64,000 nucleotides of DNA from Leifsonia aquatica (GTDB lineage: Bacteria; Actinomycetota; Actinomycetes; Actinomycetales; Microbacteriaceae). Location of the stretch: contig NZ_JACHVP010000002.1 in the NCBI RefSeq assembly GCF_014190775.1, positions 558,001 through 622,000 on the forward strand, written 5' to 3'. Numbering within the stretch: the stretch's first letter is position 1; every line of letters starts with the position of its first letter. The translations under genes and the position numbers were made by a program. Positions 6,891 through 15,317 of the stretch are shown one piece after another. The notes under the pieces were generated by a model. That model did not search any database and was not told the DNA's origin. It was given only the letters and a program-made list of their open reading frames with translations.

Positions 6891-7787
6891 TTACGGCGTC
6901 GGCATCCCTCCGTTGACCGAGAGCGTCTCGCCGATCACGTAGCTCGACTCGGGGGAGGCGAGGAAGACGTAGGCCGGAGCCAGCTCCGCGGGCTGCCCGG
7001 CGCGACCGATCGGGGTCTGGGATCCGAAGTCCGGCAGCTCCTCCGGCGGCTGGCCGGCGCTCGGCTGCAGCGGCGTCCAGATCGGCCCGGGCGCGACCGC
7101 GTTGACGCGGATGCCCTTCGGCGCGAGCTGCTGGGCGAGCGCCTTCGTGAACGCGTTGATGGCGGCCTTGGTCGTCGCGTAGTCGACGAGCTGCTCGCCC
7201 GGCGTGTACGCCTGCACCGAGGTCGTGTTGATGATGGTCGCGCCCGGCTTCAGGTGCGGGAGGGCGTCCTTGGTGAGCCAGAACATCGCGTAGACGTTCG
7301 TCTTCATCGTGAGGTCGAACTGGTCGTCGGGGAGCTCCGCGAGGTCGGTGCAGAAGATCTGCTTGCCCGCGTTGTTGACCAGGATGTCGAGCCCGCCGAA
7401 GGTGTCGACGACGCGTTCGACGACCTCAGCGGAGAAGGCGCGATCGGTCAGGTCGCCCGGGATCAGCAGCGCCTCCCGGTCGGCCGCGCGGATCTGCTCG
7501 GCGATCGCCTGGGCGTCCACCTCCTCGTCGGGCAGGTAGACGATGGCGACGTCGGCGCCCTCGCGGGCGAACGCGATGGCCGCAGCGGCGCCGATCCCGG
7601 AGTCGCCGCCGGTCACCAGCGCTTTGCGACCGGCGAGCCGGCCGCTGCCGACGTAGCTGGTCTCGCCGTGGTCGGCGGGCGGGTCGAGCTCGCTGTCGCG
7701 GCCGGGCTCGGAGACCTGCTTCTCGGGCGGCTCGATGTGCGGGTAGCGGTCGACGGGGTTGTCGAAGGTGTACTGGTTCTGAGGCAT
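6891..7787 (-). CDS. SDR family oxidoreductase (YhdF/YghA-type general stress reductase)
   Basis: The 298-residue product begins with a 45-residue lead (MPQNQYTFDNPVDRYPHIEPPEKQ shown in part) that is characteristic of the YghA/GsiB-associated SDR subgroup, then the classical Rossmann cofactor motif TGGDSGIGAAAA, NNAG, the catalytic Ser-Tyr-Lys (SVQ, then YATTKAA) and PGPIWTPL. It probably reduces an aldehyde or ketone with NAD(P)H. Proteins of this subgroup are usually induced by general stress. The gene lies behind the small hypothetical gene at 7859-8206 on the same strand with a 71-base gap. Confidence 0.88.
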   Translation of the reverse strand: MPQNQYTFDNPVDRYPHIEPPEKQVSEPGRDSELDPPADHGETSYVGSGRLAGRKALVTGGDSGIGAAAAIAFAREGADVAIVYLPDEEVDAQAIAEQIRAADREALLIPGDLTDRAFSAEVVERVVDTFGGLDILVNNAGKQIFCTDLAELPDDQFDLTMKTNVYAMFWLTKDALPHLKPGATIINTTSVQAYTPGEQLVDYATTKAAINAFTKALAQQLAPKGIRVNAVAPGPIWTPLQPSAGQPPEELPDFGSQTPIGRAGQPAELAPAYVFLASPESSYVIGETLSVNGGMPTP

Positions 7788-8318: not shown

Positions 8319-9494
8319 ATGAGAGCACTCACCTGGCAGGGGAACAAGAAGCTCGCCGTCGTCGACGCCCCCGACCCGCGCATCCAGGAGCCGACGGACG
8401 TGATCGTGCGCATCACGTCGTCCGCGATCTGCGGCTCCGACCTCCACCTGTACGACGTCCTCGGGCCGTTCCTGAGCGCCGGCGACATCCTGGGCCACGA
8501 GCCGATGGGGATCGTGGAGGAGGTCGGCGCCGACGTGCGCGAGCTCGCGGTGGGCGACCGGGTGGTGATCCCGTTCGTCATCGCGTGCGGGCACTGCCAC
8601 ATGTGCCGGCTGGGCCTCACGACCCAGTGCGAGACGACGCAGAACTACGACCAGGGCACGGGTGCCGCGCTGTACGGCTACACCGAACTCTACGGCTCCG
8701 TGCCCGGCGGCCAGGCCGAGCGCCTGCGCGTGCCGCTCGCCGACTTCAACGCGCTCAAGGTGGGCACCGAACTGCCCGACGAGCGGTACCTCTTCCTCAG
8801 CGACATCCTCCCGACCGCCTGGCAGGGCGTGCAGTACGCGAACCTCCCGGAGCGCGGCGTGCTCGGCGTCATCGGCCTCGGGCCGGTCGGGCAGTTCGTG
8901 AGCCGGATCGGCGTGCACCTCGGTCACCGGGTCGTCGCCGTCGACCCCGTCCCCGAACGGCGCGCGATGGCCGAGCGGCACGGCGTCGACACCTTCGACC
9001 TCTCCGACGACGCGGCCTCGTGGCTGCGCGAGGCCACCGACGGCCGCGGTCCGGACGCGGTCGTGGACGCGGTCGGGATGGAGGCCCACGGCAATCCGAC
9101 GACCGCCCTCACGCAGTCGGCGGTCGGTCTGCTGCCCGACCCGGTCGCCAAGAAGCTCATGACGACCGTCGGCGTCGACCGGCTCGCCGCGATGATGCTC
9201 GCGATCGACTCGGTCCGGCGCGGGGGCACGGTCTCGCTGAGCGGCGTCTACTCCGGCGTCGCCGACCCCATGCCGCTCATGAAGATGTTCGACAAGCAGC
9301 TCTCGCTGCGGATGGGGCAGTGCAACGTCCACTCCTGGCGCGACACCCTGCTCCCGCTCGTCGACGACCCGTCGGATCCGCTCGGCACCGAGGACCTCGT
9401 CACGCATCACGCTTCGATCGACGACGCTCCGGGCATGTACGACCTGTTCCGCGACAAGAAGGACGGCTGTGTCAAGGTCGTACTCCATCCCTGA
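8319..9494 (+). CDS. Zinc-dependent alcohol dehydrogenase (formaldehyde/threonine dehydrogenase-like MDR)
   Basis: The 391-residue product is a medium-chain dehydrogenase: catalytic zinc residues C38 in ICGSDLHL and GHE in LGHEPMG, a structural zinc site CGHCHMCRLGLTTQC, and the NAD-binding motif GLGPVG. The insert around VGLLPDPVAKKLMTTVGVD is typical of the glutathione-independent formaldehyde dehydrogenase-like subgroup. It should oxidise an alcohol or aldehyde with NAD. The next gene starts inside its last 26 bases, so it is the first gene of a five-gene, translationally coupled run. Confidence 0.88.
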   Translation: MRALTWQGNKKLAVVDAPDPRIQEPTDVIVRITSSAICGSDLHLYDVLGPFLSAGDILGHEPMGIVEEVGADVRELAVGDRVVIPFVIACGHCHMCRLGLTTQCETTQNYDQGTGAALYGYTELYGSVPGGQAERLRVPLADFNALKVGTELPDERYLFLSDILPTAWQGVQYANLPERGVLGVIGLGPVGQFVSRIGVHLGHRVVAVDPVPERRAMAERHGVDTFDLSDDAASWLREATDGRGPDAVVDAVGMEAHGNPTTALTQSAVGLLPDPVAKKLMTTVGVDRLAAMMLAIDSVRRGGTVSLSGVYSGVADPMPLMKMFDKQLSLRMGQCNVHSWRDTLLPLVDDPSDPLGTEDLVTHHASIDDAPGMYDLFRDKKDGCVKVVLHP

Positions 9495-10521
9495 GGCGGC
9501 AGTGCAGCAGGCGGCCGTGACCACGGACGGCGCCTCGTTCGCGCGCTTCCTCTCCGCATCGTCGTCGTGGGGAGGCAGCGTGGCGCCGATGCTCGCCGTC
9601 CTCCGTGCCGTCGAGCCAGGGTCGCTGCTCCCGTCGCCGGGTGCGGGGCAGACGGACGAGCGCCTCCGCCGGTTGGCGCGCGTCGCTGAGAGCGACGTGA
9701 CCGCCGCCCGGGTCCTCGAGCCGCACGTGGACGCCGTGGCCATACTCGCGGAGGCCGGGGAGCCGGCGCCCGAGCGCGGCACGACCTGGGGCGTGTTCGC
9801 CGCCGAGGCTCCGGACGCGGTGGTGCAGGCGATCCCCACCGCCGACGGCTGGCTGCTGCGCGGGCGCAAGGCGTGGTGCTCGCTCGCCGGCGAGCTGACC
9901 AATGCGCTCGTCACCGCGACGACCCTGACCGGCGAACGGCGGATGTTCGCGGTCGACCTCACGGCCGCCGAGGTCACCGCGGAGCCGGCCCACTGGGTCG
10001 CCCGCGGCCTGGCTGAGGTGGTGAGCGGCCCCGTCCGGTTCGACGGAGCGCTCGCGACGCCCGTGGGCGGCGACGGGTGGTACCTGGATCGTCCCGGCTT
10101 CCGCTGGGGCGCCGTCGGGGTCGCCGCCTGCTGGTGGGGCGGCTGCCTCCCGATCGCGGAGGCGCTGGCGGCGCGGGTGCGCCGTCGCCCCGACGATGAA
10201 CTCGGCGCGGCTCGCGCCGGCGAGCTGCACCGCGCGCTCGACGCCGGACGGCTCGCCCTCCGCGACGCCGCCGCGCGCATCGACAGCGGAGCGGTCGACG
10301 ACGCGGCTTTGCTCGCGCACGGCGTGCGCGGCACCGTGGCGGACGCCGTCGTGCTCGCCCTCGCCGCCGCCCGCGACGTGCTCGGACCGGCCGCCCTCGC
10401 CTTCGACGAGAGCCTCGCCCGGCGCTGCGCCGACCTCGAGCTGTACGTCGCCCAGTACCACCGGGGCCGCGACGACGCCTCCCTCGCCCGTCACCTGCCC
10501 GAAGCCGGGCTCGCGTGGTGA
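9469..10521 (+). CDS. Acyl-CoA dehydrogenase-like flavoprotein
   Basis: The GTG at 9469 has AAGGA five bases upstream and overlaps the dehydrogenase gene by 26 bases. The 350-residue product keeps the acyl-CoA dehydrogenase plan but is short and divergent: a helical N-terminal part, the middle-domain element WLLRGRKAWCSLAGELTNALV (the GxKxWCSGA-type flavin/substrate loop) and a helical C-terminal part. I cannot find a clear catalytic glutamate, so the reaction is uncertain. It is followed by a GTGA overlap with the PIG-L/methyltransferase gene, and probably modifies an intermediate of the same pathway. Confidence 0.75.
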   Translation: MSRSYSIPEAAVQQAAVTTDGASFARFLSASSSWGGSVAPMLAVLRAVEPGSLLPSPGAGQTDERLRRLARVAESDVTAARVLEPHVDAVAILAEAGEPAPERGTTWGVFAAEAPDAVVQAIPTADGWLLRGRKAWCSLAGELTNALVTATTLTGERRMFAVDLTAAEVTAEPAHWVARGLAEVVSGPVRFDGALATPVGGDGWYLDRPGFRWGAVGVAACWWGGCLPIAEALAARVRRRPDDELGAARAGELHRALDAGRLALRDAAARIDSGAVDDAALLAHGVRGTVADAVVLALAAARDVLGPAALAFDESLARRCADLELYVAQYHRGRDDASLARHLPEAGLAW

Positions 10522-11777
10522 GCTTCGACCCGCTCGTGACGGTGACGCCGCACGAGGAGTGGGAGGAGGAGGCGCGTCGCCGGGAGGTCCCGCGCCGGAC
10601 GGCCGAGTGGCTGGCCGGGTTCGACGCGGTCACCGTGCTCGCCGCGCATCCCGATGACGAGACCCTGGGCGCCGGCGGTCTGATCGCCTCGTGCGCGGAG
10701 GCGGGCATCCCCGTGTCCGTGGTGGTCGCCACGGTCGCCGAGCCGGCCCGGGCCGCGGAACTGGCCGAAGCGCTCGACCGCCTCGGCGTCACGACCGGAC
10801 CCGTCCTGCTGGGCCTGACCGACGGCCGGCTCAAGCACGAGGCCGACGCCCTGCGGAGCGGCCTGGAGCAGGTCCTCCGTGCCGACGGCACCCGGCGGCT
10901 CGTGCTCGCGCCCTGGCCCGGCGACCGCCACGGAGACCACCGCACACTCGGCCGGGAGACCGCCGAGGTGTGCGCGGCGGCCGGTCACACCCTCCGCTAC
11001 TACCCGATCTGGCTCTGGCAGTGGGGGACGCCCGACGACCTCCCCTGGTCGCGCGCGTCGGAGGTGGAGCTGACCGGGGAGGCCCGCAAACGCAAGGGGG
11101 CGGCGCTCGCCGCGTTCCCGTCGCAGGTGCATTCGTCCGCCAACCCGTCCGGCGTCCTCCCCGCGGGTCTCCTCGAGCGTGCGGCCGCGGGGCGGGAGCT
11201 GCTGATCGAGCCGCAGGAGGATCCGCTCGGCGAGCACTTCGAGCGGCTGCACCGCGCCAGCGCGGACCCCTGGTCGGTGCGCACCCGCTGGTACGAGCGG
11301 CGCAAGCGCGCACTGACGCTCGCGTCCCTGCCGGCGGAACGCTACGGCCGTGCCCTCGAGCTCGGCTGCTCCAACGGCGAGCTCTCGGCCGCGCTCGCCC
11401 AGCGGTGCGATTCCGTGCTGGGGATCGACGCCTCCGCAGCCGCCGTCGAGCTCGCCACCCGTCGCACGGCGGAACTCCCCACCGTCCGCGTCGAGCGGAT
11501 GCGGGTGCCCGGCGAGTGGCCTGGCGGGGCCTTCGACCTGGTGGTCGTCTCCGAACTGGCCTACTACCTCGCGGCCGACCAGTGGAAAGCGACGATCGAC
11601 CGGATCGTGACCTGCCTCGCCCCGGGCGGCGCGGTGCTGCTGTGCCACTGGTCCGGCATCGCGGACGACTTCGCGCAGACGGGTGCGGAGGCGCATGAGC
11701 GTTTCGCCGCACAGTCGGGCCTGCGCCGGCTCGTCGGCCATGTCGACGAGTCGTTCCGGCTGGAGGTCTACCGATGA
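10518..11777 (+). CDS. Bifunctional PIG-L deacetylase / class I SAM-dependent methyltransferase
   Basis: Two enzymes are fused in about 419 residues. Residues 38-215 are a PIG-L/LmbE zinc deacetylase, with the metal motif AAHPDDETLG at about 43-51 and the second site DRHGDH; family members remove N-acetyl groups from amino sugars (MshB is one). Residues 255-415 are a Rossmann methyltransferase of the NodS-like kind, with SAM motif ALELGCSNGELSAAL and the post-motif FDLVVVSELAYYL. The GTG at 10518 overlaps the previous stop as GTGA. Together with the adjacent glycosyltransferase it points to deacetylation and methylation of a sugar-bearing molecule; the product is unknown. Confidence 0.85.
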   Translation: MSFDPLVTVTPHEEWEEEARRREVPRRTAEWLAGFDAVTVLAAHPDDETLGAGGLIASCAEAGIPVSVVVATVAEPARAAELAEALDRLGVTTGPVLLGLTDGRLKHEADALRSGLEQVLRADGTRRLVLAPWPGDRHGDHRTLGRETAEVCAAAGHTLRYYPIWLWQWGTPDDLPWSRASEVELTGEARKRKGAALAAFPSQVHSSANPSGVLPAGLLERAAAGRELLIEPQEDPLGEHFERLHRASADPWSVRTRWYERRKRALTLASLPAERYGRALELGCSNGELSAALAQRCDSVLGIDASAAAVELATRRTAELPTVRVERMRVPGEWPGGAFDLVVVSELAYYLAADQWKATIDRIVTCLAPGGAVLLCHWSGIADDFAQTGAEAHERFAAQSGLRRLVGHVDESFRLEVYR

Positions 11778-12448
11778 CCGTCGAGCATGTGATCGTCGCC
11801 GTGCCCGCGCGCGACGAGGAGGAGACGCTGGCGGCCTGCCTCGAGTCGGTGCTCGTCGCCTCCGCGCACGTGGAGGTGCCGGTGACCGTGGTGGTCGTCC
11901 TCGACGGCTGCGTGGACGCCTCGGCCGAGATCGCCCGGGGCTTCGCCGGAGTGCTGATCGTCGAGCGCGACCACGGCAACGTCGGCCGAGCGCGGCAGGA
12001 CGGCGTCGCGGCCGGCCTGGCCCAGGCCGCGTCCGCGCCGGAGCGGACCTGGATCGCCTTCACCGACGCCGACACCGTGGTCCCGCGCATGTGGCTGCAG
12101 GCGCATCTGGCGGCCGCCGAGAGCGCGGACCTCTTCGTCGGCGCGGTCGTTCCGCGCCTGGACGACCTGGATGCGGCCCGACGCCACGCCTGGACGCGCA
12201 GCCATCCGCCGGGCGCGACCCTGGGGCACGTCCACGGCGCCAACCTCGGGGTGCGCGCCAGCGCCTACGCGGAGGCGGGCGGTGTCCTTCCGCTCGTGGT
12301 GGGCGAAGACGTCGATCTCGTGGCACGGGTGAGGGCGTCCGGTCGCCCGGTCGTCGAGAGCGAGCAGCATCCCGTCCTCACCTCGGCACGTCTCGATGGC
12401 CGGGCGCCGGACGGGTACGCGGCCCACTTGCGCGCCCTGGTCTCGTGA
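11774..12448 (+). CDS. Family 2 glycosyltransferase
   Basis: The 224-residue product is a GT-A fold inverting glycosyltransferase: start VIVAVPARDEEETLAACLES, nucleotide-sugar loop VVLDGCVDAS, and the metal-binding FTDADTVVP. It lacks membrane helices, so it is a soluble or peripheral enzyme, shorter than polymerising GT2 enzymes and suited to adding one sugar. ATGA overlap with the deacetylase/methyltransferase upstream and GTGA overlap with the AraC gene downstream show a single translational unit. Donor and acceptor cannot be read from the sequence. Confidence 0.85.
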   Translation: MTVEHVIVAVPARDEEETLAACLESVLVASAHVEVPVTVVVVLDGCVDASAEIARGFAGVLIVERDHGNVGRARQDGVAAGLAQAASAPERTWIAFTDADTVVPRMWLQAHLAAAESADLFVGAVVPRLDDLDAARRHAWTRSHPPGATLGHVHGANLGVRASAYAEAGGVLPLVVGEDVDLVARVRASGRPVVESEQHPVLTSARLDGRAPDGYAAHLRALVS

Positions 12449-13386
12449 CGACCCGCGAGGAGCTGCGGACGTCGGACCCTGATGTCGCCCTCGACCTGCT
12501 CCGCGGGGTCTACCGCGGGGTCGAGCTGACCGTCCCGGCGAGCAGGCGGTTCAGCTGCGACCTCTCGGTCGTGGGCGACGAGCGCTTCTCCCTCGTGAGC
12601 GTCGACTTACGCTCGTCGGGCCGAGCCGCCATGGAAGCCCAGACCGCCTTCGTCGTCGGCGAGTCCGAGCTCCCGGTGCAGGTGTCGGCGGGCCGGCGCG
12701 TTCTCGACACGACGCAGCCGTACCTTCATCCGGTCGCGCCCGCGGAGGCGGAGTGGGAGGCGCACCTGCTGCTGAACGCGACCCAGCTCGAGGAGCGTCC
12801 GGTGCGGGAGCTGCTCGCCCAGCACTACGGGCGGGACGATCTCCCGGTGCGCTTCGCCGACGCTGCGCCCGTCTCTCCGGAGCGCGCCCGGCTCTGGTCG
12901 GCCGCCACCGCGCATGCCCGCGCCGTCGCGGCCGATCCCGAGGTGTTCTCGAGCGAGCTGGTGCGGGATGCGCTCTTCCGCAGTCTCACCGCCGCTCTGG
13001 TGTCCGTCTTCCCCAGCGACCTGCTCGACCTGCCCGCTGCGCGCGACGGGGCGACCGCGACCCCCGCGGCCGTGCGGCGGGCGATCGCGTACATGGAGGA
13101 GAACGTCGCGGACCCCATCAGCGTCGCCGACATCGCGAAGGCCGCGCGCCTGTCGGCCCGCGGGCTGCAGGAGGCGTTCCGCCGCGTGTTCGGCGACACC
13201 CCCACCCGCTACCTGCGCCGGATGCGGCTGGAGGCGGCCCGCGCCGACCTCCAGCGCCGCGAGCGGACGGACGGCGCGACGGTGGCGCAGATCGCGAGGC
13301 GGTGGGGCTTCAGCCATCTCCCGCGGTTCGCGACCTACTACCGCGAGACGTTCGGCGAGAGCCCGCGGGACACCCTCGACACGTGA
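12445..13386 (+). CDS. AraC family transcriptional regulator, last gene of the glycosyltransferase operon
   Basis: The GTG at 12445 overlaps the glycosyltransferase stop as GTGA. The 313-residue product has a beta-rich N-terminal sensing domain and a C-terminal AraC DNA-binding domain with both helix-turn-helix units: DPISVADIAKAARLSARGLQEAF and VAQIARRWGFSHLPRFATYYRETFG (shown in part). Having the regulator in the same transcript as the biosynthetic genes suggests autogenous control of that pathway. It is convergent with dps, 24 bases away. Confidence 0.85.
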   Translation: MTTREELRTSDPDVALDLLRGVYRGVELTVPASRRFSCDLSVVGDERFSLVSVDLRSSGRAAMEAQTAFVVGESELPVQVSAGRRVLDTTQPYLHPVAPAEAEWEAHLLLNATQLEERPVRELLAQHYGRDDLPVRFADAAPVSPERARLWSAATAHARAVAADPEVFSSELVRDALFRSLTAALVSVFPSDLLDLPAARDGATATPAAVRRAIAYMEENVADPISVADIAKAARLSARGLQEAFRRVFGDTPTRYLRRMRLEAARADLQRRERTDGATVAQIARRWGFSHLPRFATYYRETFGESPRDTLDT

Positions 13387-13410: not shown

Positions 13411-13989
13411 TCAGGCCTTGGCCGGCGTGCGGTTCTCGGCGCTGACCATCCAGGCGAGCTGCTCGAGGCGCTCGATGATCGCGTGGAGCTGGTCGGCAGA
13501 CGTCGGGTCGGCCTCGTCGACGTCGTCGTGCACCGAGCGCATCGTGCGGACCACGGCCTCCAGACGCGCGGTGATGAGGTCGATGGCGACGGCCGTGTCG
13601 ATCTCGCCGTTCGGGAAGTCGTCGAGCGTGGTGGACTCGGCGACCGTGCGGGAGCGGCCGTCCGGCGTGGCGTGGAGGGCGCGCATGCGCTCGGCGATGT
13701 CGTCGCTGAACTCGCGTGCCGCCTCGACGATCTCGTCGAGCTGGAGGTGCAGGTCGCGGAAGTTGTGCCCGACGATGTTCCAGTGCGCCTGCTTGCCCTG
13801 CAGGTGCAGTTCGATCAGGTCGACGAGCACGCGCTGCAGGTCGGCGGCCAGGGACGCGGGTGCGACGAAGCCGTGCTCCGCGTTCTCGCGACGGGTGGTG
13901 TGCTCGCCGGCCGCTTCGCCGCGCGGGCGAGAGGTGCGGGGCGCGGCGGCCGCGGTGGTCTTGGTGGTCTTCTTGGCGGTGGTGGCCAT
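13411..13989 (-). CDS. dps: Dps family DNA-protecting ferritin-like protein
   Basis: The 192-residue product has a Lys/Ala-rich N-terminal tail (about 45 residues) that in Dps proteins binds DNA, then the four-helix ferritin fold. The inter-subunit ferroxidase site is visible as QGKQAHWNIVG and HLQLDEIVEAAREFSDD. Dps dodecamers oxidise and store iron with peroxide and compact DNA in starvation or stress. The ATG at 13989 has GGAG eight bases upstream. It is a single-gene unit facing the AraC gene. Confidence 0.92.
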   Translation of the reverse strand: MATTAKKTTKTTAAAAPRTSRPRGEAAGEHTTRRENAEHGFVAPASLAADLQRVLVDLIELHLQGKQAHWNIVGHNFRDLHLQLDEIVEAAREFSDDIAERMRALHATPDGRSRTVAESTTLDDFPNGEIDTAVAIDLITARLEAVVRTMRSVHDDVDEADPTSADQLHAIIERLEQLAWMVSAENRTPAKA

Positions 13990-14092
13990 CGGTATCGCTC
14001 CTTGGACTCGATTCCCCACGGACGGTAGGCCGGTCGACCGGGCTTGTGAACGGGGTTGACGGGTCGGAATCGACCGTCCGGCCGCCGGATTG

Positions 14093-14104
14093 GTACATGT
14101 GTAC
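14093..14104. promoter_or_regulatory. Predicted TetR operator, GTAC-N4-GTAC, copy 1
   Basis: GTAC-ATGT-GTAC lies nine bases before the TetR start codon. The same GTAC-N4-GTAC layout occurs directly before the acetyltransferase gene at 14722-14733, so both genes are probably repressed by this TetR protein. Confidence 0.55.
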
Positions 14105-14113
14105 GCTGGCGGG

Positions 14114-14689
14114 ATGGCCGACAGCTCCCCTGCCGAGGCGCGCAGACCGCGGCGCCACGACCCCGCCCGGCGCGACCGGATCATCGACGCCTGCCTCGAT
14201 GTGATCGCCGAGCGCGGGGTCGCGGGCACGACGCATCGCCGGGTGGCGGAGGCCGCCGACGTCTCCCTGGGCTCGATGACCTACCACTTCACCGGCATGG
14301 ATGCCCTGCTCGGCGAGGCGTTCGACCGGTTCGCGCGCACCTTCAGCGCCGGGTTCGACGCGAGCATGGCGGCGTGCACGTCGGCCGCCGAGGCGCGGGA
14401 GGCGCTCGCCCGCCACATCCTGCACGAGGTCTTCGGCACCCCGCGGGAGCTCGTGCTGACGCAGGAGCTGTACACGCTGGCGGCACGGGACCCGCGCTAC
14501 CGGACCATCACGAACGCCTGGATGGGTCGGAGCCGCGCCGTGCTCGAGCGGCTCTTCGACCCGGTGACGGCGGGCATCCTGGACGCACTCGTCGAGGGGA
14601 TGACGCTGCACCGGGCGCTGGACGTCGAGCCGTACGACGCCTCGGCGGTGCGCGCCGCGATCGACCGGGTCGCGGGCGGGGCGGCCTGA
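14114..14689 (+). CDS. TetR family transcriptional regulator
   Basis: The 191-residue product has the TetR helix-turn-helix at residues 15-60 (RIIDACLDVIAERGVAGTT, HRRVAEAADVSLGSMTYHF) and a helical ligand domain of the type often named TetR_C for YieF-like regulators. The ATG at 14114 is chosen; the upstream GTG at 14090 would place the operator inside the gene. The downstream sugar O-acetyltransferase gene, 46 bases on, carries the same operator, so local and self-repression are likely. Confidence 0.87.
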   Translation: MADSSPAEARRPRRHDPARRDRIIDACLDVIAERGVAGTTHRRVAEAADVSLGSMTYHFTGMDALLGEAFDRFARTFSAGFDASMAACTSAAEAREALARHILHEVFGTPRELVLTQELYTLAARDPRYRTITNAWMGRSRAVLERLFDPVTAGILDALVEGMTLHRALDVEPYDASAVRAAIDRVAGGAA

Positions 14690-14721
14690 GCATTCGCTGC
14701 ATGCACGGGTTCACCCGCAAT

Positions 14722-14733
14722 GTACGATCGTAC
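14722..14733. promoter_or_regulatory. Predicted TetR operator, GTAC-GATC-GTAC, copy 2
   Basis: A perfect palindrome TGTACGATCGTACA (14721-14734) ends one base before the ATG at 14736. Its position over the start suggests it covers the transcription start of a leaderless or nearly leaderless transcript. It matches copy 1 in front of the TetR gene. Confidence 0.6.
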
Positions 14734-14735
14734 AC

Positions 14736-15317
14736 ATGAGTCACGACTACTTCGCCGGCGACCCCCGCACCAACCGTGAGCGCATGCTCGCCGGTGACCT
14801 CTACATCTCGGACGACCCGGAGAGCGAGCGCCTAGCCCTCCACGGGGCGCAGCTCGCCGACGCCTACCACCGCGCCTACATCGCCGGTGACGACGGGGCC
14901 CGCGCGATCCTCGAGGACCTCCTCGGAGCTTTGGGCGAGGATGCGTTCGTCAAGCCTCCGCTGTTCGTCGACTACGGCGCGCACATCACCGTCGGCGCCC
15001 GCACCTTCGTCAACTACAACCTCGTCGCGCTCGACGTGGCGAGCATCACGATCGGCGAGGACTGCCAGATCGGCCCCAACGTCCAGCTGCTGACCCCCAC
15101 CCACCCGGTCGACCCGCAACCGCGCCGCGACAAGCTGGAGGCGGCGGAGCCGATCGTCATCGGCGACAACGTCTGGTTGGGCGGCGGTGCGATCGTCTGC
15201 CCCGGCGTCACGATCGGCGACAACAGTGTGATCGGGGCCGGCTCGGTCGTCACCCGTGACGTCCCGGCGAACGTGGTCGCGGTCGGCAACCCCGCGAGAG
15301 TCCTCCGCGAGATCTGA
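14736..15317 (+). CDS. Sugar O-acetyltransferase (maltose/galactoside acetyltransferase-like)
   Basis: The 193-residue product has the Mac N-terminal segment (NRERMLAGDLYISDDPES) and a left-handed beta-helix of hexapeptide repeats (ITIGEDCQIGPNVQLLTP, VIVIGDNVWLGGGAIVCPG shown in part), with the catalytic His in TPTHPVD. Such enzymes acetylate the 6-OH of sugars with acetyl-CoA, usually to detoxify unmetabolised sugar. There is no ribosome binding site between the operator and the ATG, in keeping with leaderless translation. Confidence 0.92.
   Translation: MSHDYFAGDPRTNRERMLAGDLYISDDPESERLALHGAQLADAYHRAYIAGDDGARAILEDLLGALGEDAFVKPPLFVDYGAHITVGARTFVNYNLVALDVASITIGEDCQIGPNVQLLTPTHPVDPQPRRDKLEAAEPIVIGDNVWLGGGAIVCPGVTIGDNSVIGAGSVVTRDVPANVVAVGNPARVLREI

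Follow-up and report, generated by a model that had tools for sequence, protein, structure and literature searches.

A conserved four-activity gene core in Leifsonia aquatica and other bacteria, probably for the biosynthesis of an amino-sugar conjugate

Introduction

What might be made by five genes that overlap one another end to end in the genome of Leifsonia aquatica? These genes lie within a stretch of 64,000 nucleotides (contig NZ_JACHVP010000002.1, positions 558,001 to 622,000; hereafter the window) and encode a zinc-dependent alcohol dehydrogenase, a flavoprotein of the acyl-CoA dehydrogenase (ACAD) fold, a PIG-L deacetylase fused to a NodS-like methyltransferase, a small family 2 glycosyltransferase (GT2) and an AraC-family regulator. 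A preliminary description of this DNA had read all five as a single pathway for a glycoconjugate, under autogenous AraC control. To see which of these genes belong together, we compared the locus across genomes, taking as the core four activities: the ACAD-fold flavoprotein, the PIG-L deacetylase, the NodS-like methyltransferase and the small GT2.

Results

Four activities form a conserved core in Actinomycetota

In 15/28 genomes of the genus, three genes were found together (ACAD-like, PIG-L/methyltransferase and GT2), and these were missing from the other 13. A profile of the ACAD-like protein matched 70/199 genomes of the family, drawn from 36/85 genera and with a single match in nearly every positive genome, and 60/198 genomes of the order (28/73 genera), while a narrower profile with a stricter limit matched 10/198 genomes of the phylum. 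Sixty regions of 20 kb chosen by an ACAD match (57 at order level and three at phylum level) were then scanned with four family profiles. The order-level matches in the window's own genome and on the very short contigs of G236 and G253 were not used, and the phylum-level matches in G124, G140 and G189 were not added. Random control regions were taken from the same contigs for 45 of the 60; contigs were too short in 12 cases, and three regions (L090, L091 and L093, the last two with an incomplete core) were left out by no fixed rule.

All four core families lay within 6 kb in 56/60 regions, on one strand in 55 of these 56, whereas 0/45 random control regions gave an above-threshold match to even one of them. 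The grouping of the core is therefore beyond chance. The exceptions were L088 and L089, which lack PIG-L (of two frames checked in each, one had no family, one a weak GT7C match and two were short-chain dehydrogenases, SDRs), L093, which lacks the methyltransferase and GT2, and L091, with a divergent ACAD match alone, in three pieces. Across 70 loci, the distance matrices of the four core proteins were correlated with r of 0.66-0.81, the highest value in 500 permutations being 0.26. Together, these data leave very little doubt that the four core activities constitute one module. Conservation of the neighbourhood outside this strain, which the preliminary description had set beforehand as a check on its reading, was thus found for the core. 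What survives of its five-gene unit is this four-activity core, far older than had been assumed, with the zinc dehydrogenase and the AraC gene falling outside it.

The zinc dehydrogenase recurs near the core; the AraC gene is a local addition

Relatives of the zinc dehydrogenase (34-68% identical) were present in 11/60 test regions, all 11 of them among the 45 with a matched control, versus 0/45 controls (p = 0.00024); the 11 regions come from five genera, and counted by genus the comparison was 5/26 versus 0/26 (p = 0.025). Within the genus, such relatives occurred in 2/14 regions, with a 97% identical copy beside the core in L018. Outside the genus, 0/60 regions had a relative of the AraC regulator near the core; inside it, 1/14 did, that of the nearest relative. 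From these counts, we regard the AraC gene as a local addition and the dehydrogenase as a neighbour that recurs; we reject the AraC protein as a part of the pathway, and a single five-gene pathway under autogenous AraC control is not supported.

The core extends to other phyla

Annotated plasmid records carry the core set, wholly or in part, as separate genes (Table 1). The 16 stretches listed were taken from match lists for their spread of organisms, without a control set. The core, in whole or in part, is thus present in Actinomycetota, Pseudomonadota and Deinococcota, a reach that the preliminary description had overlooked.

In Rubrobacter indicoceani, the ACAD gene is preceded, at a distance of 44 bases, by a NodB-superfamily polysaccharide deacetylase (PF01522) and followed by the methyltransferase and GT2, which have a pyridine-nucleotide oxidoreductase gene between them; the stretch gave no match to the PIG-L profile. 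In this one case, the arrangement fits a deacetylation step together with a redox step. The deacetylase had no relative in L088 or L089, which lack PIG-L, and its sole other match among the loci compared with it was in a control region.

Two of the records contain unusual flavoprotein genes. A 'hypothetical protein' of Legionella lytica with no Pfam match (L033:7864-8796) reached 219 bits against the profile of the core flavoprotein, and the ACAD-family protein of Deinococcus radiodurans (L155:175-2514) is 779 amino acids (aa) long, with no Pfam match in its first 427 residues. In the same D. radiodurans stretch, a helicase gene on the opposite strand separates PIG-L and the methyltransferase.

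Layout of the locus

Table 1. Features of the window, and the core set in 16 annotated plasmid stretches.
Feature or stretch	Position	Strand	Evidence and content
Zinc-dependent alcohol dehydrogenase, 391 aa	8319..9494	+	Pfam ADH_N/ADH_zinc_N; associated gene, outside core
ACAD-fold flavoprotein, 350 aa, GTG start	9469..10521	+	Pfam Acyl-CoA_dh_1; core; later start at 9502 possible
PIG-L deacetylase/NodS-like methyltransferase fusion, 419 aa	10518..11777	+	Pfam, alignment of 17 orthologues; core
PIG-L domain of fusion, residues 40-151	10635..10970	+	Pfam; AHPDDE and HGDH motifs
NodS-like S-adenosylmethionine (SAM) methyltransferase domain, about residues 240-419 of fusion	11235..11774	+	Pfam, fold matches
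GT-A fold GT2 glycosyltransferase, 224 aa	11774..12448	+	Pfam, structure model, fold matches; core
AraC-family regulator, 313 aa	12445..13386	+	Pfam HTH_18; local addition
Dps/ferritin-like protein	13411..13992	-	Pfam; stress neighbour
SDR, start estimated	6891..7772	-	Pfam; neighbour
Kitasatospora plasmid			Core set, separate genes
Pandoraea plasmids (two stretches)			Core set; GT2 of P. vervacti in two pieces
Acinetobacter plasmids (two stretches)			Core set, separate genes
Cupriavidus plasmid			Core set, PIG-L only distant and set apart
Sulfitobacter plasmid			Core set, separate genes
Legionella lytica plasmid			Core set, ACAD gene last
Comamonas plasmids (two)	L034:3610-8578, L160:4565-9561		otsA, ACAD, PIG-L, methyltransferase, GT2, otsB; ends overlapping or nearly touching
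Deinococcus (three stretches)			D. radiodurans without GT2; D. proteolyticus methyltransferase and GT2 only
Paraburkholderia plasmid			Methyltransferase and GT2 only
Roseomonas plasmid			Core without GT2
Rubrobacter indicoceani plasmid	L158:3951-8602		PF01522 deacetylase, ACAD, NodS-like methyltransferase, Pyr_redox_2, GT2

The five overlapping genes, and the families to which they had been assigned, were recovered as first described: frames and overlaps agree with the sequence, and Pfam returned all five families. With the ACAD start at 9469, the zinc dehydrogenase and ACAD-like genes overlap by 26 bases; the following junctions are GTGA (ACAD/fusion), ATGA (fusion/GT2) and GTGA (GT2/AraC), and TGA is the stop codon of all five genes. 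Most of the fetched ACAD-like orthologues beyond the nearest relative align only from residue 14-55, often from 22-27, and a start at either of two later GTG codons, 9502 or 9517, would remove the overlap; we favour the overlapping start since AAGGA precedes 9469. The fusion has a second in-frame GTG at 10515. Past the Dps gene, at 14090-15317 of the window, lie a TetR-family regulator and then a hexapeptide-repeat transferase bearing a maltose-acetyltransferase cap.

The flavoprotein has the ACAD fold and features of a monooxygenase

In Pfam, the flavoprotein scored above the cut-off for the C-terminal ACAD domain (25.7 versus 22.4) and below it for the middle domain (24.8 versus 33.3), and gave no match to the N-terminal domain. 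Its structure model (pLDDT, the predicted local distance difference test, of 92.9) has the ACAD fold. The top Foldseek rows for this model mix monooxygenases (TdsC, KijD3 and DszC) with dehydrogenases, and DnmZ is also among the rows; KijD3 and DnmZ are amino-sugar N-oxygenases of antibiotic pathways. Within a GxKxxCS segment common to DszC and the flavoprotein, Ser138 aligns with Ser163, a residue with a functional role in DszC. In our two sequence sets, Ser138 is conserved in 82/82 and 17/17 and Cys137 in 82/82 and 15/17. Conversely, where an MCAD-type enzyme would have its catalytic Glu (located by ungapped extension from an aligned Asp), Glu stands in 3/82 and 0/17, and Tyr or His in 76/82; the presumed IVD-type position is occupied by an invariant Gly. 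Although DszC, TdsC, KijD3 and DnmZ share the ACAD fold with the flavoprotein, their identity with it is about 16-20%. We lean slightly towards a DszC/KijD3-like flavin monooxygenase rather than an acyl-CoA dehydrogenase. The redox step first proposed for this protein is retained as a plausible one; the signs against a normal acyl-CoA dehydrogenase had been missed.

A deacetylase fused to a NodS-like methyltransferase, followed by a GT2

The first domain of the fusion belongs to the PIG-L/LmbE deacetylases by both family score (Pfam, 62.8 bits versus a cut-off of 28.2) and zinc-site motif: H44, D46, D47, E48, H138, D140 and H141 are invariant across 17 orthologues, and all of these but E48 make up the motif residues that are invariant in nine diverse members. 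The second domain matches the Pfam NodS family (47 bits versus 24) and has as fold matches 4isc and NodS 3ofj, but lies far below the NodS equivalog NF041650 (59.9 versus 300). In a weakly resolved tree whose outgroup branches are very long, with one outgroup among the core rows, four NodS proteins separate from the core methyltransferases with a support of 84/61. The two domains share a single open frame in 43/60 actinobacterial regions; the fusion is split into two overlapping frames in 1/15 core-bearing genomes of the genus (G010; Leifsonia sp. Leaf336, L024:8001-9264, on the contig of L017). With deacetylase and NodS-like methyltransferase joined in one protein, the methyltransferase may well act on the amine that the deacetylase has freed, and deacetylation followed by N-methylation is, by analogy, a fairly probable sequence of steps.

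The third core protein matches Glycos_transf_2 in Pfam (57.8 bits), with invariant TDAD and ED motifs and a structure model (pLDDT 96.0) of GT-A fold, whose fold matches mix fucosyl-, mannosyl-, GlcNAc (N-acetylglucosamine)- and other transferases. The best-scoring curated GT2 families were MftF (mycofactocin) and TIGR04283 (arsenosugar); at 46.0 versus 280 and 48.3 versus 182 bits, respectively, we reject membership of either.

Stress genes accompany the core

When genes near the core were grouped, 45 neighbour groups were listed and ten of the commoner ones annotated, among them long catalases, the zinc dehydrogenase family, GAF-ANTAR proteins, an epimerase and a GT7C protein. KatE was found near the core in 10/60 regions (including L093, which has no control), that is in 9/45 matched regions versus 0/45 controls, and by genus in 7/26 versus 0/26 (p = 0.005), while ANTAR proteins were found in 8/45 versus 0/45. 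The p-values for KatE, ANTAR, epimerase and GT7C are optimistic, since these queries were picked after the test set had been seen. Dps occurred in 5/60 test regions (3/45 matched versus 1/45 controls) and 6/14 genus regions, and SDR, for which the query was a crude cut, in 6/60 (5/45 versus 2/45) and 4/14. Among the queries derived from the window (dehydrogenase, Dps, SDR, TetR and AraC), the dehydrogenase alone was significant by itself. Combining KatE, dehydrogenase or Dps by genus gave 11/26 versus 1/26 (p = 0.001). KatE was near the core in 0/14 regions of the window's own genus, and relatives of OtsA and OtsB were found in 0/60 actinobacterial regions.

A catalase, trehalose-synthesis or ferritin-like gene was present in 9/16 plasmid stretches (Kitasatospora, two of Acinetobacter, Cupriavidus, Sulfitobacter, Legionella, two of Comamonas, and Paraburkholderia) and absent from 7/16 (two of Pandoraea, three of Deinococcus, Roseomonas and Rubrobacter). 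In Acinetobacter baumannii, excerpts of PMC5660220 place ACICU_02432-02435 (a glycosyltransferase, a SAM-dependent methyltransferase, LmbE and an acyl-CoA dehydrogenase-related protein) in one operon, whose genes were down 31-62-fold in two colistin-dependent mutants (Table 2 there), along with trehalose-6-phosphate synthase (27-50-fold), its phosphatase (12-35-fold) and catalase (22-31-fold); the same four gene names stand beside blsA in an excerpt of PMC6240043. We matched these genes to the core by names and order rather than by sequence, and they are separate, unlike the fusion in the window; the core occurs in the ACICU_02432-02435 gene order on an A. baumannii record. Overall, the company of stress genes, which the preliminary description had passed over, makes a stress role for the core reasonably likely.

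Discussion

A possible pathway and its alternatives

The core probably serves, in kind, the biosynthesis of an amino-sugar conjugate. Beyond this, we consider it about evenly balanced whether the four activities form a biosynthetic module, used under stress, for a small intracellular amino-sugar compound. In such a pathway, for which we infer donor, acceptor, step order, product and role, the GT2 would transfer a sugar carrying an N-acetyl group (probably GlcNAc, with UDP-GlcNAc as donor) to an acceptor; the PIG-L domain would strip the N-acetyl group and the NodS-like domain would methylate the freed amine, following a NodB-then-NodS logic within one polypeptide; the ACAD-fold flavoprotein would oxidise the product, and the compound would aid survival of drying or oxidative stress. 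The dedicated sugar pathway first suggested, one that includes steps of deacetylation and methylation as well as redox chemistry, is upheld as an inference, its product still only putatively a glycoconjugate. The lack of a transporter among the ten annotated neighbour groups suggests that the product stays inside the cell; weighing against this, MFS or RND genes are present in some plasmid stretches (Acinetobacter, Deinococcus, Sulfitobacter, Comamonas and Roseomonas).

The GT2 might instead decorate a surface glycan or glycolipid that is later deacetylated and methylated, and its fold relatives do include the surface-glycan enzymes WrtF, TarP and TarS, while a GT7C-type glycosyltransferase and an NAD-dependent epimerase (post hoc queries) accompany the core in 9/60 and 8/60 regions, respectively, versus 0/45 controls. 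Such an envelope modification nevertheless seems unlikely: the ten annotated groups include no flippase or polymerase, and the GT2 and flavoprotein models are globular, with hydropathy peaks (2.0 and 1.7) that lie in a core helix or strand of the fold. Transporter genes in the Acinetobacter, Deinococcus, Sulfitobacter and Roseomonas stretches, like KijD3 and DnmZ among the Foldseek rows, would suit an N-methylated or N-oxidised amino-sugar antibiotic or signal with a local AraC switch. We hold such a specialised metabolite to be less probable still, given the wide presence of the ACAD-like gene across the family, nearly always as a single match, the near absence of AraC relatives beside the core and the lack of a scaffold-building enzyme among the annotated groups. 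Finally, were the flavoprotein a true acyl-CoA or acyl-ACP dehydrogenase, the product might, like some Nod factors, bear an unsaturated acyl group; this is the least probable of these alternatives, with the N-terminal ACAD domain unmatched, the middle domain below its cut-off, Tyr or His usually in place of the catalytic Glu, and no acyltransferase among the five window proteins in Pfam.

Returning to a stress-used intracellular compound, its wider extension is speculative: at least three phyla might share an undescribed stress metabolite made by Nod-factor-like chemistry outside symbiosis (a GT2 that would build a short compound bearing GlcNAc, a PIG-L/NodB-type deacetylase, methylation by the NodS superfamily and oxidation by an ACAD-fold monooxygenase), in some Proteobacteria from or alongside trehalose, and perhaps serving as a general desiccation protectant.

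Comparison with known systems

The enzyme families are all known; what appears to be undescribed within the open-licence literature is the way they are combined, together with the spread of this set over several phyla and the stress genes around it. In the portions of that literature covered, no paper describing the four-activity module was found, only gene listings (PMC5660220, PMC6240043), and the LmbE in an excerpt of PMC7143919 is a tunicamycin gene unrelated to the core.

In mycothiol synthesis by MshA-MshB and bacillithiol synthesis by BshA-BshB, GlcNAc transfer is followed by a PIG-L deacetylase. The core resembles these systems in this logic, but its transferase is a GT2 and it includes no cysteine ligase. 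Synthesis of either thiol by the core was rejected, as the scores for MshB (24.8 versus 224.35 bits) and BshB1 (52.4 versus 182.5 bits) are far below the curated cut-offs. In the window's genome (G000), the best scores for MshA (143.8 versus 462.5 bits), MshB (22.6 versus 224.35) and MshC (241.3 versus 485.1) are likewise all below the cut-offs; this genome may therefore lack mycothiol.

In Nod-factor synthesis, NodB frees an amine and NodS methylates it. A GT2, a sugar N-deacetylase and a methyltransferase of the NodS superfamily are common to the NodB-NodC-NodS set and the core, and nodC directly precedes nodS in two fetched rhizobial records. The core differs in having PIG-L instead of NodB (except in Rubrobacter), a small GT2, an additional flavoprotein, no acyltransferase among the window proteins, and a methyltransferase far under the NodS equivalog cut-off. 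With catalase, Dps or trehalose genes often nearby, the module may make a metabolite that many environmental bacteria produce under stress. Its small size would allow expression or deletion in one step and hence direct access to the product, and the pathway would be a case of NodB-then-NodS-like chemistry outside nodulation.

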